Positions 38,786-59,729 of a stretch of DNA of 61,405 nucleotides are shown here, one piece after another. This stretch comes from Flavisolibacter sp. Lineage in GTDB: Bacteria > Bacteroidota > Bacteroidia > Chitinophagales > Chitinophagaceae. The stretch's first letter is position 1. Each line of letters opens with the position of its first letter. The notes beneath the pieces were generated by a model. It ran no database searches and had not been told where the DNA came from. It worked only from the letters and a program-made list of their open reading frames with translations. A program made the translations under genes and the position numbers. Location of the stretch: positions 1-61,405 of the forward strand of contig JAQBNG010000047.1 in the NCBI GenBank assembly GCA_028288675.1, written 5' to 3'.

Positions 38786-38880
38786 GTTGGGTGTTGCATT
38801 TACTGGCCGGATGAATAAAGCACACGTAGAAAATTTTCTATCGTTCAACTTATGTATCCTACTTACTTGGCTTTATGTAT

Positions 38881-38917
38881 TCTCCTGACTCCTGAATTCT
38901 GTCTCCTGTCTCCTCTC
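38881..38917. repeat. CAGGAGACAG-type repeat between regulator and kinase
   Basis: On the minus strand several units of AGGAGACAGGAGACAGAA and CAGGAGTCAGGAG are seen, part of a family also present at 11411-11556 and 41760-41795. It lies between the regulator's stop and the kinase's start. Confidence 0.7.
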
Positions 38918-40273: not shown

Positions 40274-40358
40274 GTATTCAAACGGGGTTGTGGCAAGATG
40301 CGAATCTAACAATATGCCATCAATATAAGATTGTGAGAATGAAGGACTGAGCGTTTAT

Positions 40359-40411
40359 TGTTCGGAACGGACTGTATCAAAACCGGACACTTCCTGTTCG
40401 TATGCGAACAG
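40359..40411. promoter_or_regulatory. Dyad CTGTTCG-TATG-CGAACAG, likely regulator site
   Basis: Perfect 7-bp dyad with a 4-nt spacer at 40394-40411. A second, imperfect site starting TGTTCGGAACG lies at 40359-40369, 35 bases upstream. Both share TGTTCG. Their position 54 and about 90 bases before the promoter-like element fits an NtrC-type enhancer. The regulator gene is divergent, so the site may serve both sides. Confidence 0.65.
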
Positions 40412-40508: not shown

Positions 40509-41762
40509 GTGGATAGAAAAATTGAAAGAAAAGGGTTAAGTAAAAAAACGGTTTACACAATAACAGGTATCGCTGCCTTAATCATTTTAATTGGTAGCAG
40601 CATTTATTATACCTCCGGTGGCTCAAAACTAAATGTAGAAGCAGAACGCATTACAATCAGTGAAGTAAAGAAAGGGGCATTTAAAGAGTTTATCCCTGTT
40701 AATGGAATTGTGTTGCCGCAAACAACAATTTATTTAGATGCCGTTGAAGGCGGCAGGGTAGAAGAGAAGCTGGTGGAAGATGGCGCTAACGTTAAAAAAG
40801 GTCAACCCATTCTCAGGCTATCAAATACTGATCTTGAACTTAGTTTGGTAAACCAGCAAACCTCTGTTTACAACCTGCTTACGCAAATGCAAATCGCAAA
40901 AAATGCGGCGCAACAAAACACCACGCAAAAGCTTAATCAAAAAACAGATGTGGAAAGTGCTTACAAAGAAGCTAAACGTATTTATGATCTGAACAAATAT
41001 TTATACGAACAGAAAGCCATCGGTTTGCAGGAATTTAAGCAGGCAGAAAATAACTACAACTACCAGATGGAAAGAATGAACCTGACAGATAGAATTTTGA
41101 AGCAGGATGTAAGTTCAAATACGCAGCAGGTTTCGCAGGCGCAACAATCTTACCAGGGCTCGCAAAATGCGTTAGGTGTGATGCGTAAAAAAGTGGGCGA
41201 CCTTGTTGTAAGGGCACCCGTAGATGGACAGCTAACATCATTAGACGCAGAGATTGGACAAAGCAAAAACAAAGGCGAGCGCCTTGGACAGATTGATATT
41301 ACCGACGGTTATAAAGTAAGGGTAGATGTGGATGAACATTATATCTCCCGTGTGTTTATTGGGTTGATGGGCGAAGCCACCGTTGCTGGCAAGGCCTACA
41401 AGCTAAAGATCACCAAAGTTTATACACAGGTAAACAATGGCCGCTTCCAGGTTGATATGCTTTTTGTTGATGGAGTGCCGGAAGGTATCCGTCGCGGGCA
41501 AACATTGCAAATAGGTTTGGCACTAAGCGATGAAACACAGGCGTTGTTATTAAGCAAAGGCGGCTTTTTTCAGCAAACCGGTGGAAGCTGGGTGTATAAA
41601 GTAACAAGCGATGGCAGCAAAGCGTATAAAGTTGATGTGCAGCTAGGACGCCAAAACCCTGATTATTATGAAGTGTTGAATGGTTTGCAGCCGGGGGATA
41701 AAATCGTTACATCAAGCTATGAGAACTATGGAAATATGCAGGAACTGGTGATTAAGAAATAG
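40509..41762 (+). CDS. MacA-like periplasmic adaptor (HlyD/RND-MFP family)
   Basis: A 417-residue membrane-fusion protein linking inner-membrane ABC permeases to a TolC-type channel. There is one N-terminal membrane helix (residues 15-33, TVYTITGIAALIILIG), then a lipoyl-like half (GGRVEEKLVEDGANVKKGQPI), a long coiled-coil hairpin (about 105-205), the second lipoyl half (VRAPVDGQLTSLDAEIGQ) and beta-barrel domains. It starts at GTG (40509), with no nearby ATG; this is the only GTG start called in the window. It opens the efflux operon, and no other adaptor is present in it. Confidence 0.92.
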   Translation: MDRKIERKGLSKKTVYTITGIAALIILIGSSIYYTSGGSKLNVEAERITISEVKKGAFKEFIPVNGIVLPQTTIYLDAVEGGRVEEKLVEDGANVKKGQPILRLSNTDLELSLVNQQTSVYNLLTQMQIAKNAAQQNTTQKLNQKTDVESAYKEAKRIYDLNKYLYEQKAIGLQEFKQAENNYNYQMERMNLTDRILKQDVSSNTQQVSQAQQSYQGSQNALGVMRKKVGDLVVRAPVDGQLTSLDAEIGQSKNKGERLGQIDITDGYKVRVDVDEHYISRVFIGLMGEATVAGKAYKLKITKVYTQVNNGRFQVDMLFVDGVPEGIRRGQTLQIGLALSDETQALLLSKGGFFQQTGGSWVYKVTSDGSKAYKVDVQLGRQNPDYYEVLNGLQPGDKIVTSSYENYGNMQELVIKK

Positions 41763-41795
41763 GAGCCAGGAGCCAGAATAGAGGAGCCAGGATAC
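41760..41795 (+). repeat. GGAGCCAGGAGCCAG repeat after the adaptor gene
   Basis: Three tandem GGAGCCAG units directly after the adaptor's stop. Same family as the intergenic purine-rich repeats at 11411-11556 and 38881-38917. Confidence 0.75.
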
Positions 41796-41842
41796 GCAAC
41801 TCGCATTTTCAGAAACCAACTATAACTATAAAACCAGCGTTT

Positions 41843-41989
41843 ATGAAACTGTTTTTTATTATCGGGATGTTATGCATCAATAATGTATCATCCCCAACAA
41901 AACCAAGCACCACTTCACGCATTTCAAAAAAAGAAATAAGGCCTTCTTATAAGCTGGCTCCTTCTATTTTAATTGTCGCCACTTACTAA
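41843..41989 (+). CDS. Candidate 48-aa exported micro-protein
   Basis: ATG at 41843 opens 48 codons ending at TAA 41989. The N-terminus is signal-like (MKLFFIIGMLCINNVSS). The rest is polar, rich in Ser, Thr and Lys, with a second hydrophobic end (LAPSILIVATY). It sits between the adaptor and ATPase 1 genes, 18 bases before the latter. It could be a structured leader peptide, a cargo or partner peptide of the transporter, or a chance ORF. No family is recognised. Confidence 0.35.
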   Translation: MKLFFIIGMLCINNVSSPTKPSTTSRISKKEIRPSYKLAPSILIVATY

Positions 41990-42007
41990 ACACAAATAAC
42001 TGTCATT

Positions 42008-42685
42008 ATGATAAAGATCAAGAACCTCGAGAAAATATACCGTACCGAAGACGTGGAAACTGTGGCGTTGAATAAACTTACAATTGATATTAGTGAAGGT
42101 GAATTTGTAGCTATAATGGGACCATCCGGTTGTGGCAAATCCACGCTGCTTAATATTCTTGGTTTGTTAGATGACCCGGACGGCGGAAGCTTTCAATTTA
42201 ACAGTATCGAGGTAGCAAAATTCAACGAACGCAAAAGAGCCGACCTGCGCAAAAAGAATATTGGCTTCGTCTTTCAAAGCTTTAACCTAATTGACGAGCT
42301 GACTGTCTTTGAAAATGTTGAATTGCCGCTTATTTATTTAGGTGTTTCAAGTGCGGATCGTAAACAAAGAGTAGAAAAAGTTTTAGATAAAATGCAGATC
42401 ATGCATCGCCGCAACCATTACCCACAGCAACTTTCAGGCGGTCAGCAACAGCGTGTTGCCGTAGCAAGGGCCGTAGTAAATAATCCTAAATTGATTCTTG
42501 CCGATGAACCTACGGGTAATCTTGATTCATCGAACGGTAATGAAGTAATGCAGTTGCTGACCGATTTAAATGAACAAGGGACAACTATCATTATGGTTAC
42601 TCACTCGGAGCATGATGCACGATACAGCCATCGGATTATACGTATGCTCGATGGGCAGACGGTGCTGGAGAATATTATGGTTTGA
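42008..42685 (+). CDS. MacB-type ABC ATPase 1
   Basis: A 225-residue stand-alone nucleotide-binding domain. All motifs are canonical: Walker A GPSGCGKST (38-46), Q-loop Gln90, signature LSGGQQQRVAVARA (142-155), Walker B LILADEP (162-168), D-loop GNLD (170-173) and switch His199 in VTHSEHD. It belongs to the LolD/MacB/FtsE group that powers FtsX-fold permeases. A normal MacB carries its permease on the same chain; here the permeases are separate genes. It is the likely ATPase for the six permeases that follow after a 313-base gap. Confidence 0.95.
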   Translation: MIKIKNLEKIYRTEDVETVALNKLTIDISEGEFVAIMGPSGCGKSTLLNILGLLDDPDGGSFQFNSIEVAKFNERKRADLRKKNIGFVFQSFNLIDELTVFENVELPLIYLGVSSADRKQRVEKVLDKMQIMHRRNHYPQQLSGGQQQRVAVARAVVNNPKLILADEPTGNLDSSNGNEVMQLLTDLNEQGTTIIMVTHSEHDARYSHRIIRMLDGQTVLENIMV

Positions 42686-42724
42686 AGCCTCACCCCCCAG
42701 CCCCTCTCCTCGCGGAGAGGGGAG
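42686..42724 (+). repeat. C-rich palindromic intergenic repeat
   Basis: CCCCTCTCC (42701-42709) pairs with GGAGAGGGG (42714-42722) across a 4-nt loop, preceded by CCTCACCCCCCAG. This CCCCxxxCCCCTCTCC-GGAGAGGGG form is a common dispersed Bacteroidota repeat. It follows ATPase 1's stop directly and could also pause or end transcription. Confidence 0.75.
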
Positions 42725-42931
42725 TACGACTCCGAAATTTGAATTGTTCTTATGATAACAGTTTCTGTATTCCTCGCTCCGTAGGAACGTTTTATGGTTA
42801 GAAAGAACAGTTGAATTTGGAGCAGCGTTCCATTGAAACGCCTGGTGCAAAAGCGGAAGAGGATGTTTTGAAATTGAATTACGATCGCTATCATTAAGCT
42901 ACTGCTATAATGCCCAATAGAATTACTGAAC

Positions 42932-42983
42932 GTACAAGAGTGCGACGCAAAGAACGATCATAAGAATTACTTCTGCTGGTTAC
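42932..42983 (+). repeat. Dispersed repeat, copy C
   Basis: GTACAAGAGTGCGACGCAA at 42932-42950 is identical to copy B, followed by TCATAAGAATTAC and a CTGCTGGTTAC end comparable to copy A's GCTGGGTAC. It ends 16 bases before the ATG of permease 1. Confidence 0.8.
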
Positions 42984-42998
42984 AAAAAAATATTTGCT

Positions 42999-45446
42999 AT
43001 GATTCGTAATTACCTAAAGATTGCCTGGCGCAACCTGATGAAAAATAAAGTTTTTTCTTTTATAAACATCTTCGGTTTAGCGGTAGGCCTTACCTGTTGT
43101 ATTCTTATTTCTCTCTACATCTATCACGAGACCAGCTATGACAAACACCTGCCAAACGGTGACCGGATCTACCAATTGGGCACCACTTTCATTGACCAGG
43201 GTGTTGAAGAAAAGGGTACCAATACATCAGCGCCTTTGGGAGCAATGTTGCAGCATGAATTTCCAGAGGTGGAAGCTTCCACAAGAATTTTGTCACTGTT
43301 CAGGGATGATAAAACGCTTTTCCAGGTAAAGAAAGCAAATGGAGCACTGGTATCTTTTTATGAAACAAAAGGCCTGCTTGCCGACTCTAACTTTTTTCAA
43401 ATTATTAATTACACATTTAAGGAAGGTAATCCGCAAACAGCACTGATTGCAGCTAACTCGGTAGTGATCAGCGAAGGCCTGGCTAACAAGCTTTTTGGCA
43501 GTGAAGCGGCACTCGATAAAATGGTACGAATCAGCAGCAGCACAAACGGTGATAGTACGTTTCGTGTGACTGGCGTTTTCGCTGCGCCTCAAGGTCCTTC
43601 ACATATTGATGCGAACTTCTTTATTTCATTCAGGGGTGGCAATATGAACGGCTTTGTTAACGACAATCCGAGTTTAGTCAACAACAATATGTTTAATACA
43701 TATGTGTTGCTGAAAGAAGGATCGGACGTAGTAAAGTTGCAGCAAAAGTTTCCTGCTTTTATTCAGCGCCATTTGGGAGAACAGCTAAAACAAATGGGTA
43801 AGCAACGAGCTTACTTTATGACACCTGTCGCTGCTATTCATCTATCCGGAATTGGTAGTGGCATTGCGTCTAACGGCAGTAAAACCACCTTATTTATACT
43901 TGCTTCTATTGCTGTTCTTACGTTGCTGATCGCCTGCATTAATTTTATGAACCTTTCCACTGCCAACTCAGCTAAACGTGCTTCGGAGGTTGGTGTTCGT
44001 AAAGTATTGGGTGCGCAAAAAGCTTCTTTGCTTCGCCAGTTTTTAGGCGAGTCGTTGGTGATGGCATTTATAGCACTAATATTGGCCGCTGCTATAACAA
44101 TTTTGCTGTTACCCATCTTTGAAAAAGTGGCCGGTAAAACACTCATCATTCCTTTTCAGCAAAAAATAATTCTTGGTGGCTTATTTATTTTGCTGGCCCT
44201 TGTTACAGGCTTGTTAGCCGGAAGTTACCCTGCGTTTTATCTCTCTTCTTTCAAGCCAATTAAAGTGCTAAAAGGAAAATTCAGTAATTCGCTGGCTGCT
44301 GTTTCACTGCGAAAAGGATTAGTTGTTTTTCAATTTGTGATTTCTATTGTTTTAATTATTGCTTCGGTTGTGATAGCTAACCAGATGCGTTTTTTACGCC
44401 TGAAAGACCTGGGCTTTGTAAAGGAGCAGCAAATTATTGTGCCCTTACGAACTGCTACAGCAAAGGATAATGCTTCGGCATTTAAGAATGAGGCATCCAA
44501 TCAAGCTAGCATTAGTTCTATTGGTGCAGGCATGGCTTACCCCGGTATATTTCATCCGCAGGACTGGCTAATGTACCCGCAGGGAAAAACAATGAATAAC
44601 TCCAAATCGGTTTATATCAACATGGTGGACGATAACTTTTTACAGACATTGGGTGTTCAATTAATAGCCGGAAGATTATTTTCCAAAGACTTTCCTGCAG
44701 ACACGCTAACCCGTTTTGTAGTGAATGAAGAAACGGTAAAAAGCTTTGGTTTTGCTTCGCCGCAGGCAGCCATAGGCAAATGGCTGGCGTTTGATTCAGA
44801 TGGAGAGCAACAGCAGTTTACTATCATCGGTGTGGTGAAAAACTTTCACTTTAAAGATCTACATGAATCCATTGAACCATTTGCAATGCGGTGGTATAAC
44901 GATGCTGGCTTTAATTATTTGCTTGCCCGTTCAAAGGGAGAAAATGTAAAACAATCATTGGCTGGTTTAGAAGCAACCTGGAAAAAGCTTAACCCTAATG
45001 AGCCGTTTGAATACAGCTTTCTCGATCTTGATTTTCAAAAAAATTATGAAGCCGAAGAGCGGCAATCGAGCCTTATCAACTACTTCACTATTGTGGCTAT
45101 CATTATTTCGTGCCTTGGGCTATTTGGCCTTGCCACGTTTACAGCAGAACAACGTACGAAAGAAATTGGCATACGCAAGGTTTTGGGTGCAAGCGTGTAC
45201 GGTGTAGTTGCTTTATTGTCGAAAGATTTTTTGAAGCTCGTGCTGGTAGCTGTTGTAATTGCTTCGCCGCTGGCGTGGTGGGGAATGACCAGGTGGCTGC
45301 AAAATTTTGCCTACCAAACATCCATCAGTTGGCAGGTGTTCGTCATCACTACCCTTATGGCCCTTTTCATTGCTTTCGCTACTATCAGTTTCCAGGCAAT
45401 CAGGTCCGCACTTGCCAACCCGGTAAAAAGTTTACGGACCCAATAA
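42999..45446 (+). CDS. FtsX/MacB-type permease 1 of 6 (815 aa)
   Basis: A fused double MacB-like permease with no ATP-binding domain. Layout: one membrane helix near residues 21-42, a periplasmic MacB-type core, three helices (about 295-318, 345-370, 390-415), a further helix (about 440-465), a second periplasmic core, then three C-terminal helices (from about 693). Two cytoplasmic ATPase-contact segments are RASEVGVRKVLGA (about 326) and RTKEIGIRKVLGA (about 719). The last residues NPVKSLRTQ match the other five. It would span the inner membrane as a complete core and partner with ATPase 1 and/or 2. First of six; substrate unknown. Confidence 0.9.
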   Translation: MIRNYLKIAWRNLMKNKVFSFINIFGLAVGLTCCILISLYIYHETSYDKHLPNGDRIYQLGTTFIDQGVEEKGTNTSAPLGAMLQHEFPEVEASTRILSLFRDDKTLFQVKKANGALVSFYETKGLLADSNFFQIINYTFKEGNPQTALIAANSVVISEGLANKLFGSEAALDKMVRISSSTNGDSTFRVTGVFAAPQGPSHIDANFFISFRGGNMNGFVNDNPSLVNNNMFNTYVLLKEGSDVVKLQQKFPAFIQRHLGEQLKQMGKQRAYFMTPVAAIHLSGIGSGIASNGSKTTLFILASIAVLTLLIACINFMNLSTANSAKRASEVGVRKVLGAQKASLLRQFLGESLVMAFIALILAAAITILLLPIFEKVAGKTLIIPFQQKIILGGLFILLALVTGLLAGSYPAFYLSSFKPIKVLKGKFSNSLAAVSLRKGLVVFQFVISIVLIIASVVIANQMRFLRLKDLGFVKEQQIIVPLRTATAKDNASAFKNEASNQASISSIGAGMAYPGIFHPQDWLMYPQGKTMNNSKSVYINMVDDNFLQTLGVQLIAGRLFSKDFPADTLTRFVVNEETVKSFGFASPQAAIGKWLAFDSDGEQQQFTIIGVVKNFHFKDLHESIEPFAMRWYNDAGFNYLLARSKGENVKQSLAGLEATWKKLNPNEPFEYSFLDLDFQKNYEAEERQSSLINYFTIVAIIISCLGLFGLATFTAEQRTKEIGIRKVLGASVYGVVALLSKDFLKLVLVAVVIASPLAWWGMTRWLQNFAYQTSISWQVFVITTLMALFIAFATISFQAIRSALANPVKSLRTQ

Positions 45447-45469
45447 AAATTTAAAAAATCGGTAACCAT

Positions 45470-45517
45470 GTATTGCCAGTGGTTCTACGATCATAACAAA
45501 GCAAGGAACGGCAATAC
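45470..45517 (+). repeat. Intra-operon hairpin between permeases 1 and 2
   Basis: GTATTGCC (45470-45477) pairs with GGCAATAC (45510-45517), with extra GTTC/GAAC pairing beyond a bulge. No T-run follows. It lies within the 116-base gap before permease 2 and might affect expression of the downstream genes. Confidence 0.45.
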
Positions 45518-45562
45518 TTTAATACTGGGAAAAGATTAGAAAAAACACTAAACATTTTTGAT

Positions 45563-47977
45563 ATGTTCAGAAATTATTTAAAAACAGCTTATCGCAATTT
45601 GCTCCGTTACAAGGGTTTTGCTGCTATCAATATTCTCAGTCTTACCATTGGCATCATTGGTTGCCTGGTGATTGGATTGTTTGTATGGGATGAAAAACAG
45701 TTTGATAAGAACATACCCGGTGCAGAAAATATCTACCGCATTTACGACGAAAGAAAAGATAATAATGCCACTACCTATCATGCACCTGTGGCGCCGGTAT
45801 ATGCCACGTTCATGCAACAACAATATCCCGAAGTGGATATAACGGCAAGGATGATGATGTTGGGGAATGATAGATTTTTAATGGAAGTTGACGGCCGGAA
45901 AGCTTATGAAGAAAAAGGAAAATTTGTTGACCCCTCTTTCTTCCAGGTGTTTTCTTTAAAGCTTAGTAAAGGTGATGCTGCAACCGCTTTGACAACACCA
46001 AAATCAATTGTACTGAATGAAGATTTGGCTAACCGTTATTTTGGTAAAGCAGACCCTGTTGGCAAAACAATTTATATTGATAAAGACACTTTTGAAGTAA
46101 AAGGTGTGATGGCAGGCCTGCCTTCACATTTTCACCTCGACTTTAATTACCTGATGCCCATTTCTGCCGCAGGTGTAGCTCCCGAAAGAATGCAGCGTTG
46201 GACATGGCATCAATTCTTCACTTACATAAAACTAAAACCCGGTACTAACGTTGAGCAACTACAAAACAAATTCCAGGCACAAGTCAAAAAACAGGTAGAG
46301 ATTATTGAGAGAAATTCAACCTTCCTGCCATTCTTTCAACCCTTGAAAGATGTTCATCTAAAGTCTGCGGATTTTATCTACGATAATGCCATCCGCGGCA
46401 ACGAGAGTTATGTAAAAGGCCTGACCATTATTGCCTTGTTTGTATTGGTCATTGCCTGCTTCAATTTTATCAACCTGGCAACGGCAAGATCATTCAGAAG
46501 AGCGAAAGAAATAGGTGTGCGGAAAGTGGTTGGCGCCGATCGCAGGCAACTCATTTTTCAGTTCATCATTGAAACCGTTTTGCTCTCTGTGCTTTCGATG
46601 GTGCTTGCTATAATCGCCACTTTGTTTATTGTTCCTGCTTTAAATGAATTTACCGGCAAGTCAATCAGCTTTAATCCTGTGGCCAATCCTGTAGTAGCAT
46701 TATTGATGCTTGCAGCAGGATCTGCCATTGGTGCGCTGGCAGGTGTTTATCCTGCTTTGGTGCTATCCGGTTTTCAGCCCATTAAAGTATTAAAGAACAT
46801 GAAAGTTGCAGGTGGCAGCAGCAGCTGGTTGAGGCCAGCGTTAGTAGTAGTGCAGTTTTCACTTTCCGTATTGCTGATTGTTTCAACCATTATCGTATAC
46901 AGGCAAATAAAATATTTAAACAACAAAGACCTTGGTTTTAATAAAGAACAGGTGCTTTACTTTCAAGTGAAGGGTGATGTTGGTGAGAAAGTGGAAGCTT
47001 TCAAGTCGGAGTTAAAAAAATCCCCGGGTATTGTATCGGTTACATCGGGTTATGGTTTGCCCGGCGATGCGTTTGCAGGCGATGGTGTCAGCATCGCAAC
47101 AAAAGATGGCATGAAGGAACAATCCGCCAACGTATTTCTTGCCGATCATGAGTATGTAAAAACGTTGGGATTGAAACTGATTGCCGGAAGGGATTTTTCG
47201 AAAGAAATGGCAACCGATGAAAGAGAGGCATTTATCATTAATGAAACGGCTGTAAAAGAATGGGGGTACGGCACGCCTGAAAAAGCTATCGGGCAGCCTA
47301 TACACTGGAATGAATGGAGCCCTGTTGATTCTTTAAACCCTGTGAAGGAAGGTAAAGTGATTGGGGTGGTGCAGGACTTTCATTACAAAAGCCTGCACGA
47401 AAAAGTAACCGCGTCAGTGATACAAATGTATCCCCGGGTAACAGCTACCGTTGCGGCAAAAATGAAGACTGCTGATATGAAGAACACTATCGCTTACATT
47501 ACAAAGACATGGAATGCGTTTGCTCCAGGATATCCGCTCGATTATAAGTTTATAGATGATAGCTATGGTAAGATGTATAAAGCAGAAGAAAGCCTTGGAA
47601 GCCTTATCTGGATATTTACCATCATGGCCATATTTATTGGCTGCATGGGATTATTTGGATTGGCTGCCTTTAGCGCCGAACAACGCATAAAAGAAATAGG
47701 CATTCGCAAGGTACTTGGCGCATCCGTCTTTAACATCACTGCTCTTCTATCAAAAAATTTTGTAAAGCTGGTTTTGATTTCATCATTGATTGCTTTCCCT
47801 ATTGCCTGGTGGGCTATGAATAAATGGCTGGAAGATTATGAATATCGCATTACGATCAGTTGGTGGGTTTTTGTTGTAGCCGGTGTTGCTGCTTTATTTA
47901 TTGCATTGCTGACAGTAGGGTTCCAGGCTATAAAAGCAGCCATCGCTAATCCTGTAAAAAGTTTACGCACAGAATAA
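45563..47977 (+). CDS. FtsX/MacB-type permease 2 of 6 (804 aa)
   Basis: Same eight-helix fused layout as permease 1. The ATPase-contact segments are RAKEIGVRKVVGA in the N half and RIKEIGIRKVLGA in the C half, and the chain ends NPVKSLRTE. The opening FRNYLKTAYRNLLRYKG is shared in form with all six. The periplasmic regions differ widely from permease 1 by eye, as expected if substrate or partner specificity lies there. It is 116 bases downstream of permease 1, while the next permease follows after only 11 bases. Confidence 0.9.
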   Translation: MFRNYLKTAYRNLLRYKGFAAINILSLTIGIIGCLVIGLFVWDEKQFDKNIPGAENIYRIYDERKDNNATTYHAPVAPVYATFMQQQYPEVDITARMMMLGNDRFLMEVDGRKAYEEKGKFVDPSFFQVFSLKLSKGDAATALTTPKSIVLNEDLANRYFGKADPVGKTIYIDKDTFEVKGVMAGLPSHFHLDFNYLMPISAAGVAPERMQRWTWHQFFTYIKLKPGTNVEQLQNKFQAQVKKQVEIIERNSTFLPFFQPLKDVHLKSADFIYDNAIRGNESYVKGLTIIALFVLVIACFNFINLATARSFRRAKEIGVRKVVGADRRQLIFQFIIETVLLSVLSMVLAIIATLFIVPALNEFTGKSISFNPVANPVVALLMLAAGSAIGALAGVYPALVLSGFQPIKVLKNMKVAGGSSSWLRPALVVVQFSLSVLLIVSTIIVYRQIKYLNNKDLGFNKEQVLYFQVKGDVGEKVEAFKSELKKSPGIVSVTSGYGLPGDAFAGDGVSIATKDGMKEQSANVFLADHEYVKTLGLKLIAGRDFSKEMATDEREAFIINETAVKEWGYGTPEKAIGQPIHWNEWSPVDSLNPVKEGKVIGVVQDFHYKSLHEKVTASVIQMYPRVTATVAAKMKTADMKNTIAYITKTWNAFAPGYPLDYKFIDDSYGKMYKAEESLGSLIWIFTIMAIFIGCMGLFGLAAFSAEQRIKEIGIRKVLGASVFNITALLSKNFVKLVLISSLIAFPIAWWAMNKWLEDYEYRITISWWVFVVAGVAALFIALLTVGFQAIKAAIANPVKSLRTE

Positions 47978-47988
47978 ATTACCACAGC

Positions 47989-50400: not shown

Positions 50401-50412
50401 AACCTGCGTGTT

Positions 50413-52803: not shown

Positions 52804-52813
52804 ATGAATTAGC

Positions 52814-55228
52814 ATGTTCAGAAATTATTTAAAAGTCGCTTTTCGTTATTTGTCAAAACACAAAGGCTATACAGTTATTAATGTGTTAGGACTTGCCGTA
52901 GGCATTGCCTGCTGTATATTGATCATGCAGTTTGTAAAAAGCGAGTGGAGTTTTGATCGCTTCCATTCAAAATCGGAGAGGCTGCATAGGGCATGGCTGC
53001 AGGAACATTACGAGGGGCAAATATTCACCAATACCGTTACACCAATTCCTTTGGGGCCAGTGCTTCAAGCCCATTTGCCCGAAGTGGAATCTACCTGCAG
53101 GATAGCTGCAATGAGCCCACTTATTAAATACAACAACAATACATTTACCGACCCGGTGAACATGGTTGACAGCAACTTTTTTAAGCTGTTTGATTTTGAG
53201 TTAAAGCAGGGAAACGCCGGGAATCCGCTCCCTGGTAATAATTCTTTGATCATTACAGAAAGAGCTGCTAAAAAATACTTTGGGAATGAGCAGGCAATCG
53301 GCAAAAACCTTGAATTGCAATTGGGTGATGATAAAATCATATTCGCTGTTTCAGGAGTAGCGAAAAATGTTCCTTTGGAATCCAGCATCCAGTTTGACAT
53401 GCTGATACCTTTTTCAAACGCCAAATACCTCTGGAGTGAGGCTACCCGTACAAAAGCATGGTCTAATGTGGCGGTAGAAACTTATGTGCTGCTGAAAGAC
53501 GAAGTAAAGACAGCAACTGTTAATAGAAAGATTGCTTCCATCATGGATCCTTTAGTGGCTAAAAATTATAAGCCCGGCGAGTATACGGTGACGCTGCAGC
53601 CGATAACCGGCATTCACCTCAATAACGTTTTGCCGCAAGGCAATCAGCCGGTAAGTGATCCCAAGTATTCTTATATCATGGCTACTGTTGGCATACTGGT
53701 TCTTCTGATTGCCTGTATCAATTTTGTTACGCTTTCTATAGGGAGGTCAGTAACAAGGGCGCTGGAAGTTGGCGTAAGAAAAGTCCTGGGTGCGGAACGT
53801 CAGCAACTCATTCGCCAGTTCTGGGGCGAAGCCTTGTTGCTTACATTGATGTCTGTTATCATCGGTATTGCACTTGCTATTATTTTACAGAAGCCATTTA
53901 ACCAGTTGGCTAATCGTGAATTAACCCTGGCTGCAGATGGATTCACTATCTTATTTTGTTTTATCCTGGTTGTTGTTATCGCGTTGATAGCAGGTAGTTA
54001 TCCTGCGATTATTCTTTCCGGTTTTAAACCCATAGAGGTATTAAAAGGACGGCTAAGAGCAGGCAGCAATATGGGATTTTTCAGAAGGGCTTTGATAGTG
54101 GGGCAGTTTGTTGCATCCATTGTGATGATCATCGGCACCATCACCGTTGCAAAGCAACTTAGTTATTTGCGCACAAAAGATCTCGGGTATGATCGTGAAC
54201 ATGTAGTGATCGTAGAAACCAATAAAGGGCGGGCAGAAGGGAATCAGCTCGCACAAAGATTTAAGGTTGTGCTTAATCAAAATCCTGCGGTGATCAACAG
54301 CACCACTTCTTTATACAGCATGGCTGAATATGGATGGATGAATATGGGTTACATGGATAATAAAGATGCGTTCCGTCAATTCAGGTTCAATGCTGTTGAT
54401 GCCAATTTCGTTGATGCAATGGGACTGAAGATCATCGCCGGAAGAAAGTTCTCAGCAGATAATACTGCAGATTCAAATTACATTTTGGTTAATGAAGCGC
54501 TTGTAAAAGAATATGGCTGGAAGAACCCGTTAGGACAGCGCCTACCAGGTAAATATGGCCACCGGGTTCTTGGCGTTGTAAAAGATTTCCACATAGAATC
54601 GCTTCATAATCCTATTAAACCTGTAATGCTGGCCTTGAAACCCGATAGCATTTTTACTGGTTCAAGTGACGTAAGCTATAGCACTTCTCCCCAACCAAGA
54701 ATTTCCGTAAGGTTTCGTGGCGGAAACCTACAGGAGAACATTACTTTTTTAAGGTCAGCATGGAAGTCCGTTGCCGGCGACCAGGATTTTGAATACAGGT
54801 TTTTAGAAGATGCTTTGAACACGGCTTACCAGCAGGAAGAACGACTGGGAAAGATCGTTCGCTACGCTGCTTTCTTATCCATCTTTATTGCCTGCCTCGG
54901 ATTGTTTGGCCTGGCTACACTTATCGTTGTCCGCAGAACAAAAGAGATCGGTATTCGCAAAGTTTTAGGAGCTGATGTAACCAATATTGTAGGCCTGGTT
55001 TCTAAAGATTTCGTGGTGCTTGTTTTCGTTGCTTCCCTGGTGGCATTTCCGCTTGCGTGGTGGATGCTGCAAAAATGGCTGCAGGACTTTACATATCGCA
55101 TCAACATCCCATTATTTGCTTTTGCCGGGGCTGCATTGCTTACACTTTTGGTTGCTTTATTAACTGTTAGTTTCCAGGCAGTAAAAGCGGCAATGGCTAA
55201 CCCTATAAAAAGTTTACGAACAGAGTGA
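52814..55228 (+). CDS. FtsX/MacB-type permease 5 of 6 (804 aa)
   Basis: Fused double-core permease. Contact segments: RALEVGVRKVLGA (N half) and RTKEIGIRKVLGA (C half, preceded by Arg-Arg); it ends NPIKSLRTE. Its first 21 bases are identical to permease 2's (both encode MFRNYLK), supporting duplication within the array. It is the only member ending in TGA. A 51-base gap follows before permease 6. Confidence 0.9.
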   Translation: MFRNYLKVAFRYLSKHKGYTVINVLGLAVGIACCILIMQFVKSEWSFDRFHSKSERLHRAWLQEHYEGQIFTNTVTPIPLGPVLQAHLPEVESTCRIAAMSPLIKYNNNTFTDPVNMVDSNFFKLFDFELKQGNAGNPLPGNNSLIITERAAKKYFGNEQAIGKNLELQLGDDKIIFAVSGVAKNVPLESSIQFDMLIPFSNAKYLWSEATRTKAWSNVAVETYVLLKDEVKTATVNRKIASIMDPLVAKNYKPGEYTVTLQPITGIHLNNVLPQGNQPVSDPKYSYIMATVGILVLLIACINFVTLSIGRSVTRALEVGVRKVLGAERQQLIRQFWGEALLLTLMSVIIGIALAIILQKPFNQLANRELTLAADGFTILFCFILVVVIALIAGSYPAIILSGFKPIEVLKGRLRAGSNMGFFRRALIVGQFVASIVMIIGTITVAKQLSYLRTKDLGYDREHVVIVETNKGRAEGNQLAQRFKVVLNQNPAVINSTTSLYSMAEYGWMNMGYMDNKDAFRQFRFNAVDANFVDAMGLKIIAGRKFSADNTADSNYILVNEALVKEYGWKNPLGQRLPGKYGHRVLGVVKDFHIESLHNPIKPVMLALKPDSIFTGSSDVSYSTSPQPRISVRFRGGNLQENITFLRSAWKSVAGDQDFEYRFLEDALNTAYQQEERLGKIVRYAAFLSIFIACLGLFGLATLIVVRRTKEIGIRKVLGADVTNIVGLVSKDFVVLVFVASLVAFPLAWWMLQKWLQDFTYRINIPLFAFAGAALLTLLVALLTVSFQAVKAAMANPIKSLRTE

Positions 55229-55279
55229 CGTAATGAGTGGTCAGGATCACAAGTATCTCAAAATCAGAAACCTCTTCTT

Positions 55280-57706
55280 ATGTATAAAAATTATTTAAAA
55301 GTTGCCCTGCGCAACATGTGGAAGCAAAAGACCTTTTCGGCTATCAACATCGTTGGCCTTGCTACCGGGCTCTGTTGCTTTTTACTGATTACTTTATATG
55401 TATTGGATGAATTTAGTTATGATAAGTACAATGAAAAATCGGACAGGATTTATCGCATCAATGCGGATATACGTTTTGGTGGCAGCAATATGCATTTTAC
55501 GCAAACACCTGATGTAATAGGCGAGGTGCTGGAGAAAGATTATCCTGAAATAGAAACTTATACACGCATCTTTAATAATAGCGGAAACAAGCTTGTAAAA
55601 AAAGGAACTGAATATATTAATGAATCGGATGTTGCCCATGTTGACTCCACTTTTTTCAAGGTGTTTACACTTCCGGTAATTGCGGGCAATACACAAACAG
55701 CTTTACATGAACCTAACACGGTTGTTGTAACAAGATCAACGGCACTCAAATATTTCGGCCGCACGGATGTTATCGGGAAAGCTATTGAAACCAATGACAA
55801 CACTAAAACAAGCTATAAAATAACAGCGGTTGTAGAAGATGTGCCAAGAGCATCTCATTTCCATTTTAATTTTTTCTTCTCCATGAAAAATGTTGACTAC
55901 CAGTGGGGCCAGCATTTAAGTAATAATTTTCATACCTACCTGTTATTGAAACCAGGGATTGATGTAAACGCTTTTGAAAAGAAAGCTATGAATGAATACG
56001 TGGTAAACTATGTTCTGCCGCAGGCAAAACAGTTTATGGAAATTAGAAGCATGGATGATTTTGCAAAGGCTGGAAATAAACTGGAATACAGCCTGATGCC
56101 TCTCACTAAAATTCATTTATACTCCGATAGAAATTTTGAAATTTCACCTCCGGGAAATATTCAGTACATCTATATTTTTGGTGCAGTCGCTATTTTTATT
56201 TTATTGATTGCCTGCGTGAATTTTATGAACCTTACTACAGCCCGGTCGGCTAATAGGGCAAAGGAAGTAGGCATAAGAAAAGTGTTAGGTACGGAGCGAA
56301 AATTTTTAATTACGCAGTTTCTTTCAGAGTCAACATTAATGGTTGTTGTTTCCATGCTGATAGCCCTCCTTATAACATGGGCCATCTTACCACTATTCAA
56401 TGATGTAGCCAATAAAACCATAACGTTTAACAGGCTTGCATCCCCGGTTATTCTTCCCTTGCTTATCGTGCTGCCTTTTATTGTTGGCTTACTGGCTGGC
56501 AGTTATCCTGCATTTTATCTTTCTTCATTTAAACCAATATTAGTTTTAAAAGGAAGGCTGGGAAATAAACGGGGCGGGTTAAGAAGTGCGTTGGTGGTAT
56601 TTCAATTTGCTACTTCAATCATCCTGATCATTGGAACAATTGTCGTCTTCAGGCAGTTGAATTATATCCAAACAAAAGATATAGGGTACAAAAAGGAACA
56701 GGTTTTAATTATCAATGATGTGTATGCACTCCAAAACAATGTTGATGCCTTTAGGAACGAAGTACTTCAGTTGCCCGGTGTAAAAATGGGTACCATCAGC
56801 AGCTACCTACCCGTTTCTAATTCTTCACGCAGCGATAATACCTTTTCGAAAGAGGCGGTAATGGATTCTGAAAATGGCTTTAACATGCAAACATGGGCCA
56901 TTGATTACGACTACCTGGAAACGATGGGAATGGAAGTAGTGAAGGGACGAAATTTTTCAAAAGATTTTGGTGGCGATAGTTCCGGTGTTATTGTTAATGA
57001 GGCCACAGCTAAAATTTTAGGCTATGATGATCCTTTAGGAAAAAGATTATACAGAAGCGACTACAATGGTAAACCCACTGCCTACACTATCATCGGGGTA
57101 GTGAAAAATTTTAACTACGAATCGCTAAAGCAATCTATCGGTCCGCTTTCGTTTTTCTTAGAGAAAAATGCTGGTCTTGCTTCTTTTAAAATTGCAACAA
57201 CGGATCTGCCCGGCCTGCTTACATCAATCGAAGCAAAATGGAAAGCACTGGCGCCGGGAATGCCGTACAGCTACCGTTTCCTTGATGAGTCCTTCAATGA
57301 AATGTACCAGAATGAAAACAGGGTTGGAAAGATCGCTTTGATATTTTCAATCATTGCTATTCTTATCGCTTGTTTAGGGCTTTTTGGTTTAGCCGCTTTT
57401 GTTGCGGAACAACGGACAAAAGAGATCGGTATCCGGAAAGTATTGGGCGCCAGTGTAAAGGGGCTTGTCGGTTTATTATCGAAAGATTTTGTACGCTTAG
57501 TGTTTATCGCCTTTATCATTGCGGCGCCACTCGCCTGGTATTTTATGCAAAAATGGTTGCAGGATTTTGAATATAGAATCACTATCAACTGGATGGTCTT
57601 TTTAGCAGCAGGTATAATTGCCTTGTTAATTGCAATTGCCACTATCGCCTTCCAGGCTATCAAAGCAGCAATAGCTAACCCGGTAAAAAATTTACGGAGC
57701 GAATAA
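55280..57706 (+). CDS. FtsX/MacB-type permease 6 of 6 (808 aa)
   Basis: Fused double-core permease. Contact segments are RAKEVGIRKVLGT and RTKEIGIRKVLGA; it ends NPVKNLRSE. Like the others it has one N-terminal helix, three mid helices, one further helix and three C-terminal helices around two periplasmic cores. It ends two bases before the ATG of ATPase 2, so those two are probably translated together and may be the primary pair. Confidence 0.9.
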   Translation: MYKNYLKVALRNMWKQKTFSAINIVGLATGLCCFLLITLYVLDEFSYDKYNEKSDRIYRINADIRFGGSNMHFTQTPDVIGEVLEKDYPEIETYTRIFNNSGNKLVKKGTEYINESDVAHVDSTFFKVFTLPVIAGNTQTALHEPNTVVVTRSTALKYFGRTDVIGKAIETNDNTKTSYKITAVVEDVPRASHFHFNFFFSMKNVDYQWGQHLSNNFHTYLLLKPGIDVNAFEKKAMNEYVVNYVLPQAKQFMEIRSMDDFAKAGNKLEYSLMPLTKIHLYSDRNFEISPPGNIQYIYIFGAVAIFILLIACVNFMNLTTARSANRAKEVGIRKVLGTERKFLITQFLSESTLMVVVSMLIALLITWAILPLFNDVANKTITFNRLASPVILPLLIVLPFIVGLLAGSYPAFYLSSFKPILVLKGRLGNKRGGLRSALVVFQFATSIILIIGTIVVFRQLNYIQTKDIGYKKEQVLIINDVYALQNNVDAFRNEVLQLPGVKMGTISSYLPVSNSSRSDNTFSKEAVMDSENGFNMQTWAIDYDYLETMGMEVVKGRNFSKDFGGDSSGVIVNEATAKILGYDDPLGKRLYRSDYNGKPTAYTIIGVVKNFNYESLKQSIGPLSFFLEKNAGLASFKIATTDLPGLLTSIEAKWKALAPGMPYSYRFLDESFNEMYQNENRVGKIALIFSIIAILIACLGLFGLAAFVAEQRTKEIGIRKVLGASVKGLVGLLSKDFVRLVFIAFIIAAPLAWYFMQKWLQDFEYRITINWMVFLAAGIIALLIAIATIAFQAIKAAIANPVKNLRSE

Positions 57707-57708
57707 TT

Positions 57709-58398
57709 ATGATACAACTCGAACACATCTCAAAATGGTATAACACAGGGGCCGCCAGAACCTTTGTATTAAAAGACATCAACCTTACAATTAAAGAAGG
57801 GGAATTCCTTTCTATCATGGGCCCTTCCGGTTCAGGTAAATCAACCTTGTTGAATATCATCGGCATGCTGGACGCACCCTCAGAAGGCAGCTATCAATTC
57901 ATGGAGCAATCTGTTTTTACATTAAAGGAGAAACAGCGGATGGAGTTGTACAAACACAACATCGGTTTCATTTTCCAGGCCTATCATTTAATTGATGAAT
58001 TGACCGTTTATGAAAATATTGAAACGCCTCTTTTATATCAAAACATAAAAGGTGCCGAGCGTAAAGCTATGGTGGGAGATATTTTAGACCGGTTTAATAT
58101 GGTAGGGAAAAAAGACTTATTTCCTGCGCAACTTTCAGGCGGGCAACAGCAGTTGGTTGGTATTGCACGGGCCCTGATAGCAAAACCGAAAGTATTACTT
58201 GCCGATGAACCAACCGGCAACTTGAACTCTAAACAAGGAGAAGAAATTATGGAGTTATTTAAAAAGATAAATACGGAAGAAGGCATCACCATCATACAGG
58301 TAACGCATTCTGAAAAGAACGCAGAATATGGCAACTGCAAAATTGATTTACTTGATGGAAGAATTCAGCAACACATAAAAGAGAATAGCAGCTTATGA
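57709..58398 (+). CDS. MacB-type ABC ATPase 2 with altered D-loop
   Basis: A 229-residue stand-alone ATPase. Walker A GPSGSGKST (38-46), Gln90, Walker B VLLADEP (162-168) and His200 in VTHSEKN are intact. Two deviations from ATPase 1: the residue after the signature is Leu149 (LSGGQQQLVGIARA) instead of Arg, and the D-loop ends GNLN (Asn173) rather than GNLD. It starts two bases after permease 6 and its stop overlaps the channel gene's start (ATGA). Activity is likely but may be asymmetric if paired with ATPase 1. The deviation may be normal for this sub-family. Confidence 0.93.
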   Translation: MIQLEHISKWYNTGAARTFVLKDINLTIKEGEFLSIMGPSGSGKSTLLNIIGMLDAPSEGSYQFMEQSVFTLKEKQRMELYKHNIGFIFQAYHLIDELTVYENIETPLLYQNIKGAERKAMVGDILDRFNMVGKKDLFPAQLSGGQQQLVGIARALIAKPKVLLADEPTGNLNSKQGEEIMELFKKINTEEGITIIQVTHSEKNAEYGNCKIDLLDGRIQQHIKENSSL

Positions 58399-59729
58399 AA
58401 CGAATAGCAATTTTTGCAGGCATAGTGTGCACGTTGATAGCAGTGAAAGTATCAGCGCAAACAACCAACAGGTATAGTTTGCAACAATGTATTGATACCG
58501 CCCTCGCAAATAATATCCAGGTAAAACAAAACGGCTTATTGGCAGAAGCGGCTGGTGTTAATTTAAAGCAGGCGAGAGCGAATACATTGCCGGATTTAAA
58601 TGCTGAATTTAATCATGGCATCAACCAGGGACGTAGTATTGATCCCTTTACTAATACCTACGTAGATCAATCGGTAAACTATGCAGGATATGGAATTAAT
58701 TCAGGTATTGTACTTTTTAATGGATTGAGCTTGCAAAAAGCCATCAGGCAGAATGCCTATGCCTTTGATGCCTCCCGGATGGAACTGCAACAGGCAAAAG
58801 ATAACCTTACCTTAAATGTGATACTGGCTTACCTGCAGGTATTGAACAATGAAGATTTGCTCCTTGCTGCTGTCAAACAAAAAGAGCTTAGTGCAAAACA
58901 ATTAGAACGACTGGAAATATTAGACCGGCAAGGTGCTATTAGTCCCGCATTAGCTTCGGATGTAAAAGGCCAGTTGATGAATGATGAACTAACCATTCTT
59001 AACTTACGAAACAGTTTGGAAACTGCTAAGCTTGCCTTAGCGCAATTGATGAATGTACCGTATGATACGGGAATAGCTTTGGAGCGCATCAATGCAGAAG
59101 AGTTTCTTACTGCATATCCAAAAAACAGCAGTGATGTTTATCAAACTGCCCTGCAACATTTTTCTTTAATTAAATCAGTGGAGTTACGAAAAAGAAGTGC
59201 TGAGTATGCATTGCAATCAGCAAAGGGCTTTTTGTTTCCTGCACTTGTTTTGGGTGGAGGCATGCAAACAAATTATTCAAGCGTAGCTCAAAATATGGCT
59301 GGTAAAATTCCTTATAATGACCAGGTGAAAAACAACATTTTTTACACCATCAACCTGGGTTTGCGCCTACCCATCTTTAATTCATTCAGAACAAAAAATA
59401 CAATTAAGCTTGCGGATATTGCTGTGCGAAATAGTGATTTGATACAAGAGAATACAAAGCTCCAGTTGCGCCAGCAAATTGAGCAGGCACACCTGACTAT
59501 GAGCAACGCATATGAGAGGTATAAAACCCTGGTGGAACAGGTAGCGGCTTATACAATATCATTCAAAGCTGCGGAGGCCAGGTTCTCCGCAGGTGTAGGA
59601 ACATCGGTTGATTATCTTATCGCAAAAAATAATCTGGATAGGTCAAACATCAATTTAATTAGTGCGAAGTATGATTTTGTATTGCGGAAGAAGGTGCTGG
59701 ATTATTATCAGAATGCTGCTGCTAAATAA
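58395..59729 (+). CDS. TolC-like outer membrane efflux channel
   Basis: A 444-residue outer membrane factor. The signal peptide is cleaved after VSAQ (about residue 22). The sequence opens with RYSLQQCIDTALANN and has the duplicated coiled-coil organisation of the family, the second repeat around residues 245-430. It completes the tripartite pump with the adaptor at the start of the operon. Its ATG overlaps ATPase 2's stop by four bases, so it is translationally coupled, and it is the last gene of the operon. Confidence 0.93.
   Translation: MKRIAIFAGIVCTLIAVKVSAQTTNRYSLQQCIDTALANNIQVKQNGLLAEAAGVNLKQARANTLPDLNAEFNHGINQGRSIDPFTNTYVDQSVNYAGYGINSGIVLFNGLSLQKAIRQNAYAFDASRMELQQAKDNLTLNVILAYLQVLNNEDLLLAAVKQKELSAKQLERLEILDRQGAISPALASDVKGQLMNDELTILNLRNSLETAKLALAQLMNVPYDTGIALERINAEEFLTAYPKNSSDVYQTALQHFSLIKSVELRKRSAEYALQSAKGFLFPALVLGGGMQTNYSSVAQNMAGKIPYNDQVKNNIFYTINLGLRLPIFNSFRTKNTIKLADIAVRNSDLIQENTKLQLRQQIEQAHLTMSNAYERYKTLVEQVAAYTISFKAAEARFSAGVGTSVDYLIAKNNLDRSNINLISAKYDFVLRKKVLDYYQNAAAK

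Follow-up and report, generated by a model that had tools for sequence, protein, structure and literature searches.

Tripartite ATP-binding cassette (ABC) pumps are usually regarded as fixed sets of components. Here we analyse a locus of Flavisolibacter sp. (positions 37445 to 59729 of contig JAQBNG010000047.1, GenBank assembly GCA_028288675.1) in which a conserved set of motor, adaptor and outer membrane channel appears instead to be common to exchangeable permeases, whose number among related genomes runs from one to more than 20. By the window we mean the whole stretch analysed, 61,405 bases, which is one entire contig of a 4.74 Mb draft genome.

Several described systems resemble parts of this locus. 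Group II energy-coupling factor (ECF) importers possess one energising module with two unlike ATPases, common to many interchangeable and partly dispersed specificity proteins. The acidobacterial duplicated orphan permeases (ADOP, TIGR03434) are termed orphan for having no adjoining ATPase gene. E. coli YbbAP combines a fused double MacB-type permease, carrying two periplasmic domains, with a separate ATPase, and we know of no adaptor, channel or repertoire belonging to it. YbbP is reported to have two extra linking transmembrane (TM) helices, MacB to be one polypeptide of an ATPase and a four-TM permease that works as a homodimer, and BceAB is described as lacking an adaptor (PMC5985334). The DarBCD transporter of the darobactin cluster is described as three genes located beside a peptide precursor and its enzyme (PMC9055067).

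Compared with these, the locus resembles MacAB-TolC in its adaptor, FtsX/MacB permease fold, ABC ATPase and TolC-like channel, with the same coupling and periplasmic domain families, but differs in having two unlike stand-alone ATPases, fused eight-TM permeases and several permeases per adaptor. The adaptor and TolC-like channel of strict MacAB-TolC are present; its single ATPase-permease polypeptide is not, and the model NF007826 is matched only partially (18-59 bits for the permeases and 204-226 bits for the ATPases, against 966 bits). DarBCD also has a double permease, an adaptor and a stand-alone ATPase, and in NCBIfam the adaptor and both ATPases match the DarC and DarD models best, but scores stay below the cut-offs of NF038008 (140-155 of 700 bits), NF038010 (163 of 450) and NF038007 (300 and 251 of 375). 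No peptide biosynthesis genes were evident by eye among the window's open reading frames (ORFs) of at least 100 aa, most of these neighbours never having been run against a library. ADOP genes have the same double architecture, and TIGR03434 is the best NCBIfam model for all six permeases, at 274.0-339.9 bits with a cut-off of 622.3; here, however, the ATPases belong to the conserved frame. As these cut-offs are not reached, the locus is not a strict member of MacAB-TolC, ADOP or DarBCD. YbbAP is the top fold match, but the window permeases have eight segments in a direct head-to-tail fusion. Like BceAB-RS, the locus holds FtsX-family permeases together with a kinase that has no periplasmic sensor domain, while BceAB-RS has no channel, a single permease and other kinase and regulator families. 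The likeness to group II ECF is in working principle only, those being importers built on unrelated membrane proteins whereas the common module here is that of an exporter.

The locus is a member of the type VII (MacB/FtsX/LolC) ABC transporters, as judged by PF12704/PF02687, ABC_tran and Foldseek, and we deduce from the comparisons below that it probably encodes a MacB-type export system with shared motor, adaptor and channel and an exchangeable permease repertoire. All parts are of known kinds. For the arrangement of one conserved motor-adaptor-channel-regulator set with an exchangeable repertoire, searches of an open-licence library with narrow terms found no account of such arrays.

A constant frame around a variable permease array

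The features of the locus in the window are as follows.

37445..38848, minus strand: histidine kinase (HATPase_c; the listed ORF start is TTG and the likely start lies further in)
38918..40312, minus strand: NtrC-type response regulator, divergent from the operon (Pfam: receiver, sigma-54 AAA+ domain, Fis-type helix-turn-helix)
40395..40410, no strand: putative regulator operator, palindrome TGTTCGTATGCGAACA (match to motif TGTNCGNNNNCGNACA)
40509..41762, plus strand: periplasmic adaptor (membrane fusion protein, MacA/DarC/MexJ-like), GTG start (HlyD_3, TIGR01730, PDB relatives)
42008..42685, plus strand: ATPase 1, canonical (LSGGQQQR, D-loop TGNLDS; ABC_tran)
42745..42760, no strand: weaker second operator-like site TGTTCTTATGATAACA, in the 313-base gap before permease 1 (resemblance to the upstream palindrome)
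42999..45446, plus strand: permease 1, double FtsX/MacB, 815 aa, group M (PF12704, PF02687)
45563..47977, plus strand: permease 2, 804 aa, group J (PF12704, PF02687)
47989..50400, plus strand: permease 3, 803 aa, group R (PF12704, PF02687)
50413..52803, plus strand: permease 4, 796 aa, group G (PF12704, PF02687)
52814..55228, plus strand: permease 5, 804 aa, group S (PF12704, PF02687)
55280..57706, plus strand: permease 6, 808 aa, group B, one of the two largest groups with 34 members (PF12704, PF02687; AlphaFold model)
57709..58398, plus strand: ATPase 2, non-canonical (LSGGQQQL, D-loop TGNLNS, aspartate absent; ABC_tran)
58395..59729, plus strand: TolC-like outer membrane channel with a hydrophobic signal-like N-terminus (OEP; hydropathy)

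Every gene that the original prediction had placed between 40509 and 59729 is found there in the same order, by ORF coordinates and Pfam, and the divergent kinase-regulator pair (37445-40312) belongs to the locus in addition to that list. The adaptor matches HlyD_3 and exceeds the cut-off of RND_mfp (TIGR01730), the channel matches OEP below the cut-off of TIGR01844, and both ATPases match ABC_tran.

Searches with the adaptor, the own genome included, gave matches in 13 of 29 near genomes (E <= 1e-40) and in 138 of 294 genomes of the family (E <= 1e-90), 137 of the latter with a single match. We compared 72 loci, namely the window and 71 others: 11 from the genus, which has 12 further matching genomes (we omitted G001, which is split between two contigs), and 60 more from the 138, picked for long contigs and a spread of genera. 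ORFs were labelled by their best BLAST hit to the window proteins. Adaptor, ATPase 1 and ATPase 2 occur in this order on the fetched stretch in 49 of the 72 loci, and the channel directly follows ATPase 2 in 44 of these 49. Between the two ATPases of the 49 closed arrays we counted from 1 to 11 full-length permeases (1, 2, 3, 4, 5, 6, 7, 8, 9, 10 and 11 permeases in 1, 6, 4, 7, 6, 9, 4, 5, 3, 2 and 2 loci, respectively). Additional permeases outside this count lie between adaptor and ATPase 1 in G045, G094 and G260. The remaining 23 loci are truncated by the end of a contig or of the fetched region, or lack an ATPase 2 downstream within that region, and in G130 and G082 ATPase 2 is nearby on the opposite strand. 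The frame, consisting of adaptor, ATPase 1, ATPase 2, channel and the kinase-regulator pair, thus recurs, with adaptor and ATPase 2 single-copy per genome, while the enclosed permeases vary.

Array size differs widely. Single permeases are found in the array of G254, though its genome holds more, and in the Sediminibacterium loci L255 and L257. In eight further selected arrays the span from adaptor to ATPase 2 is 29.5-78.9 kb, and hand counts of MacB_PCD places within three of these eight gave at least 22 (G240), at least 20 (G306) and at least 16 (G112). The latter three genomes contain 101-106 MacB_PCD places each, of which one permease may give two, and many permeases of about 800 aa lie scattered beyond the array. 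Four other genomes have a dispersed frame, with 95 kb to 5 Mb separating adaptor and ATPase 2. Arrays also occur in single-contig genomes, for instance G003, G145, G252 and G312.

The original prediction knew of no similar arrangement and suspected homologous arrays in related genomes. The second part is borne out, and the arrangement turns out to be widespread within the family and to occur outside it as well. Across the phylum the adaptor profile matches 120 of 395 genomes (E <= 1e-80), 7 of the 120 being Chitinophagaceae. Five stretches from other families (12-13 kb each) all hold adaptor and ATPase 1, four also hold permeases, and one of these four ATPase 2 as well. Among named loci, 80 of 502 were kept, many of them titled Chitinophagaceae; the nearest named adaptor relative is that of Flavisolibacter longurius (L182, 86% identity). 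Regulator, adaptor and ATPase 1 were also observed in Mucilaginibacter and Arcticibacter (L202, L234, L239, L253, L258), with adaptors 66-72% identical to that of the window. These two genera belong to another family than Chitinophagaceae, and their loci reflect either an old shared origin or transfer.

Permeases occur where the frame occurs

With permease 6 as query (E <= 1e-90) the best three candidates per genome were scored, so that counts per genome are lower bounds. Fused permeases were recovered in 140 of the 294 family genomes, of which 137 carry the adaptor as well and the remaining three (G103, G150, G295) carry ATPase 2; at these cut-offs every genome with permeases therefore has at least one of adaptor and ATPase 2. 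Permease, adaptor and ATPase 2 are all missing from 153 genomes. G076 (83% complete) has an adaptor and no permease was found in it. Within the genus, four of 18 genomes are without permeases (G009, G011, G012, G016) and all four are also without adaptor, while in G007 (84% complete) permeases are present and the adaptor was not found. This distribution suggests a dependence of the permeases on the frame. Frame-bearing genomes also carry fused permeases elsewhere than in the array, and as no such permeases are seen in genomes lacking the frame, these scattered copies may be powered by it too.

By analogy, the system could be an export counterpart of group II ECF, in which one chassis powers the whole interchangeable permease pool of a genome, array and scattered copies alike, and the pool turns over between related species like a defence repertoire; we give this wider view about an even chance. 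If the sharing is true, the arrays would constitute a natural experiment in the docking of type VII permeases on a common motor and in the swapping of specificity. They would also suggest, in a form open to testing, what energises the double permeases that occur elsewhere as orphans with no dedicated ATPase gene; such double permease genes are reported to be numerous in some Bacteroidota, with 28 and 33 copies in two Dyadobacter genomes (PMC11573002). The arrays moreover bring to light many exporters of Chitinophagaceae and related bacteria that have received no study and may play a part in chemical competition.

Permease architecture

All six permeases of the window match MacB_PCD (PF12704) and FtsX (PF02687) well above the curated cut-offs and are 34-40% identical pairwise. 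The E-(I/V)-G-(I/V/M)-R-K motif is present in both halves of each, that is in 12 of 12 halves, as expected from the two ATPase-contact segments assigned to them by the original prediction. In the own genome PF12704 finds six ORFs of about 800 aa, all at the locus, and four ORFs of 411-433 aa elsewhere, and permease 6 as query recovers the same six ORFs. The AlphaFold model of permease 6 (56 sequences; pLDDT 85.2, pTM 0.80) has two MacB-like halves, each with a periplasmic domain, and hydropathy indicates eight membrane segments in a head-to-tail fusion without linking helices. Foldseek placed YbbAP, MacB, a pneumococcal MacB-type transporter and LolCDE at the top of the matches to the model, their TM-scores to the query being a modest 0.23-0.48, and BceAB is also among the matches. 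Each permease can be a complete core, as the original prediction had proposed, because the model has two halves, eight membrane segments are seen and single-permease arrays exist in relatives.

The two halves are unequal at their predicted docking side. In the N-half the motif E-V-G-I-R-K is followed by ...QFL.ES and in the C-half E-I-G-I-R-K by ...LLSKDF, and these flanks, different between the halves, are each conserved. Over 435 permeases the coupling segments have mean conservations of 2.82 and 2.95 bits compared with 1.63 and 1.61 bits in the periplasmic domains, which points to a docking side that stays constant while the side facing the substrate varies. At L251:6952-9489 we also observed two adjacent ORFs of 416 and 420 aa with one permease half each, both with the motif; a frameshift is possible.

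ATPases 1 and 2

The two ATPases are both stand-alone and real, as originally described, but as spares for one another they are doubtful, since they look like two unequal halves of one asymmetric motor. Signature and D-loop of ATPase 1 are canonical and identical throughout the 72 loci. For ATPase 2, the signature reads LSGGQQQL or LSGGQQQI in all 49 loci, and in none of these is the D-loop aspartate retained (Asn in 46, His in 2 and Ser in 1), so the pair shows the consistent difference in a catalytic motif that marks heterodimeric motors. In total 33 positions distinguish the two classes, and 83 ATPase 1 and 7 ATPase 2 ORFs from further loci, a set that partly overlaps the 72, agree with the class pattern. 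The Walker B glutamate and the H-loop are intact in both ATPases, the difference therefore being milder than a classical degenerate site. ATPase 2 exists in one copy per genome at the cut-off, whatever the number of permeases, and among the 294 family genomes 129 have both ATPase 2 and adaptor, nine only the adaptor, three only ATPase 2 and 153 neither. Since the ATPases differ by class and the motif flanks of the two permease halves are unlike and conserved, ATPase 1 and ATPase 2 would be expected to pair on the two halves.

The D-loop is described as sitting at the interface of the two ATPase domains (PMC4242082, PMC7756269). In TAP, a change of its aspartate in one subunit is reported to uncouple transport, while the change in the other subunit has no effect (PMC4242082). 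The D-loop change hence marks a difference between the ATPases and is no proof of unequal work, given these TAP mutants and those of ABCG5/G8 considered below.

Age and turnover of the permease repertoire

The comparison comprised 435 permeases of at least 740 aa, the 14 shorter of 449 ORFs, including broken ones in G015, G241 and G303, being set aside. For 429 of the 435 the closest relative is in another genome, indicating that the arrays are not recent duplications; the six exceptions, in G045, G091 and G094, have their best match in their own array. The best match of a permease within its own array has a median identity of 38.8%, and that in another genome one of 67.4%. Grouping by reciprocal best hits (>=50% identity) gave 103 groups, 46 of which consist of a single protein, the largest groups having 34 members, and only one of the 25 largest groups has two members in a single genome. 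The permeases thus appear to be old, distinct families.

The sets of permease groups change with the distance between adaptors. Between loci with adaptor identity of at least 80%, 70-80%, 60-70% and below, the median Jaccard index of groups in common is 0.20, 0.10, 0.07 and 0, respectively. Gene order is kept in 385 of 440, 682 of 1169, 110 of 212 and 7 of 12 shared pairs in the same classes, thereby approaching the 50% chance level below 80% adaptor identity, the genome pairs being non-independent. Neighbours remain neighbours in 67 of 99, 75 of 264, 26 of 73 and 1 of 3 cases. Transfer of single permeases between genera was considered and is not claimed, as orthologs exceed the adaptor identity by more than 8 points in only 7 of 2510 comparisons. 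A conserved resident permease was likewise considered and rejected: group A favours the first place in the array (mean relative position 0.22, with 0 of 500 shuffles as extreme), but the window has no member of it, and the only permease of the Sediminibacterium loci falls in a group other than A.

Proposed mechanism and alternative explanations

In the mechanism that we propose, ATPase 1 and ATPase 2 would pair as an asymmetric motor, to which the unequal N- and C-halves of a permease offer two docking surfaces, and any one permease would form a full pump together with motor, adaptor and channel. The permease's own pair of periplasmic domains would pick the substrate in the periplasm or in the outer leaflet of the inner membrane, and ATP-driven movement would push it through adaptor and channel, as in MacAB-TolC mechanotransmission. 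The kinase would probably read the envelope or the transporters and switch the array on via the regulator. As a guess, the substrates are envelope-active amphiphiles such as peptides, lipids or antibiotics of neighbours. The interchangeability of cores on one adaptor, motor and channel suggested in the original prediction fits the comparative evidence of a constant frame, variable permeases and their co-occurrence.

Some observations weigh against this explanation. Motifs of the E-x-G-x-R-K type are found in both halves of 382 of the 435 permeases, in one half of 52 and in neither half of one. A change of the D-loop aspartate is reported to be without effect in ABCG5/G8 (PMC7756269), and with the D-loop change in one of its subunits TAP is described as like wild type (PMC4242082), so that the loss need not matter. 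ATPase 2 was not found in 8 of the 137 genomes with permease and adaptor; five of these eight consist of 390-630 contigs (G057, G155, G163, G168, G173), and in G088 and G183 (both 100% complete) and in G281 (93% complete, 460 contigs) just one permease reaches the cut-off. In Sediminibacterium, loci L255 and L257 contain kinase, regulator, adaptor, ATPase 1, one permease and channel, with ATPase 2 absent from the stretch of the locus. From these few cases ATPase 1 may serve a lone permease without ATPase 2, the latter going with repertoires. In several genomes ATPase 2 is distant from the array or on another contig, and the operator motif described below is confined to 20 of 65 loci. Finally, unequal loss from old large sets combined with rearrangement explains the turnover as well as transfer does, because orthologous permeases hardly ever exceed the adaptors in identity.

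The ATPases could instead be alternatives, each homodimer serving some of the permeases so that two motors use one adaptor and channel. The canonical state of ATPase 1 in all 72 loci and its presence without a neighbouring ATPase 2 in single-permease loci agree with this, but ATPase 2 has lost the D-loop aspartate throughout, goes with the adaptor in 129 of 132 genomes, is single-copy in each genome at the cut-off regardless of the number of permeases, and both unlike docking segments are found in all six window permeases; we consider two motors unlikely. A BceAB-RS-like module, in which the permeases would mainly sense antimicrobial peptides or remove them from their targets and pass a signal to the kinase, export being a side role, has a somewhat smaller chance still. 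The kinase of the window has no periplasmic domain and a kinase is part of the locus in 58 of 72 cases, BceAB is among the Foldseek matches, and a Toastrack-like secreted gene, of a domain linked to envelope stress sensing in the source cited (PMC11237479), is inserted in 16 of 72 loci. The frame nevertheless includes an adaptor and an outer membrane channel, favouring transport across the outer membrane, and the kinase and regulator families differ from those of BceS and BceR. The best folds (YbbAP, MacB, pneumococcal MacB-type, LolCDE) are also compatible with lipoprotein or lipid trafficking or cell-wall signalling, in the manner of LolCDE, YbbAP or FtsEX, rather than small-toxin efflux, and with TM-scores of this range the fold leaves the substrate undecided. 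Large and fast-changing repertoires are ill-suited to such housekeeping, which is moreover difficult to reconcile with the absence of all three parts from 153 of 294 family genomes, and we hold it to be about as improbable as the BceAB-RS-like module.

The permeases of one array might also form a single obligate complex, as their genes are tightly packed (median gap of 31 bases over 225 gaps). However, sets range from 1 to at least 22 permeases of differing groups, and even the largest groups, with 34 members, do not occur in all 72 loci. An obligate six-part complex is ruled out by this variation of set size and composition, and an obligate complex of any kind is very improbable. An artefact, or an ordinary recent tandem duplication, could be suspected from a gene family lying side by side and from the six permeases of G045, G091 and G094 that match their own array best, and the original prediction had named pseudogenes and assembly artefacts as a possible refutation. 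All six window permeases are open over their full length and only 34-40% identical, nearly all best matches lie in other genomes and the architecture is present in the single-contig genomes G003, G145, G252 and G312, so that this explanation is ruled out for practical purposes. A common motor, adaptor and channel with exchangeable permeases remains our preferred explanation.

Kinase, regulator and candidate operator

The kinase has two hydrophobic segments (approximately residues 30-51 and 55-69) with few residues between them, and hence no periplasmic sensor domain by hydropathy; it shares the locus with the FtsX-family permeases, as in BceAB-RS. An ortholog is located upstream of the adaptor on the opposite strand in 58 of the 72 loci and an ortholog of the divergent regulator in 65, some of the other stretches being too short to show them. 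The sigma-54 contact loop of the regulator is GAFTDA in 60 of the 65 loci and GAFTGA in one, and was not found in four. The own genome has two RpoN genes. Upstream of the adaptor, sigma-54 promoter-like sites with at most 3 mismatches were found in 17 of 65 loci, compared with 5 in the reversed control, and the best site in the window has 5 mismatches. With an excess of sites across loci and a poor site in the window, a classical sigma-54 promoter is neither shown nor excluded.

Of 65 regions upstream of the adaptor, 14 contain a perfect match to the palindromic motif TGTNCGNNNNCGNACA and 20, that of the window included, a match with at most one mismatch, while the reversed motif gives 0 and block shuffles 0.7; the motif had been adjusted following an initial inspection of these upstream regions. 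A first version gave 5 perfect matches and 15 within one mismatch among 72 regions, with 1 in the control. Matches to TGTNCGNNNNCGNACA include the window and 10 of the 11 fetched genus relatives, one of them with a mismatch; G005 has none. The palindrome is thus a fair candidate for an operator in the genus Flavisolibacter and a weaker one elsewhere. The second site TGTTCTTATGATAACA has 3 mismatches to TGTNCGNNNNCGNACA by hand count. A genome-wide search for a third exact match to TGTTCKTATGMKAACA, a pattern written from the two window sites, found none.

Gene spacing and inserted genes

The original prediction took the adaptor-to-channel run for one co-regulated unit. Its tight spacings are real: 11, 12 and 10 bases between permeases 2-3, 3-4 and 4-5, with 51 bases between permeases 5-6, 2 bases from permease 6 to ATPase 2 and an overlap of 4 bases between ATPase 2 and channel. 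Three wide gaps had been overlooked, namely 245 bases between adaptor and ATPase 1, 313 between ATPase 1 and permease 1 and 116 between permeases 1 and 2. A single transcript from adaptor to channel is plausible and, as these gaps break the run, unproven. By eye, the gaps contain GGAGCCAG repeats, a GC-rich hairpin and GTATTGCC/GGCAATAC arms (41763-41790, 42685-42723 and 45469-45517).

In 16 of the 72 loci a secreted-looking protein of about 312-383 aa is encoded in the permease array or between frame genes (for example L016:8748-9782, L112:1061-2101 and L168:14194-15249), and all of these proteins are linked by BLAST. Of seven that were scanned, three match Toastrack DUF4097 and four match nothing. 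Other genes, related to one another, are found inside the array at L099:4764-6239, L168:4741-6123 and L148:12532-13950, and the two of these three that were scanned match peptidase family S41.

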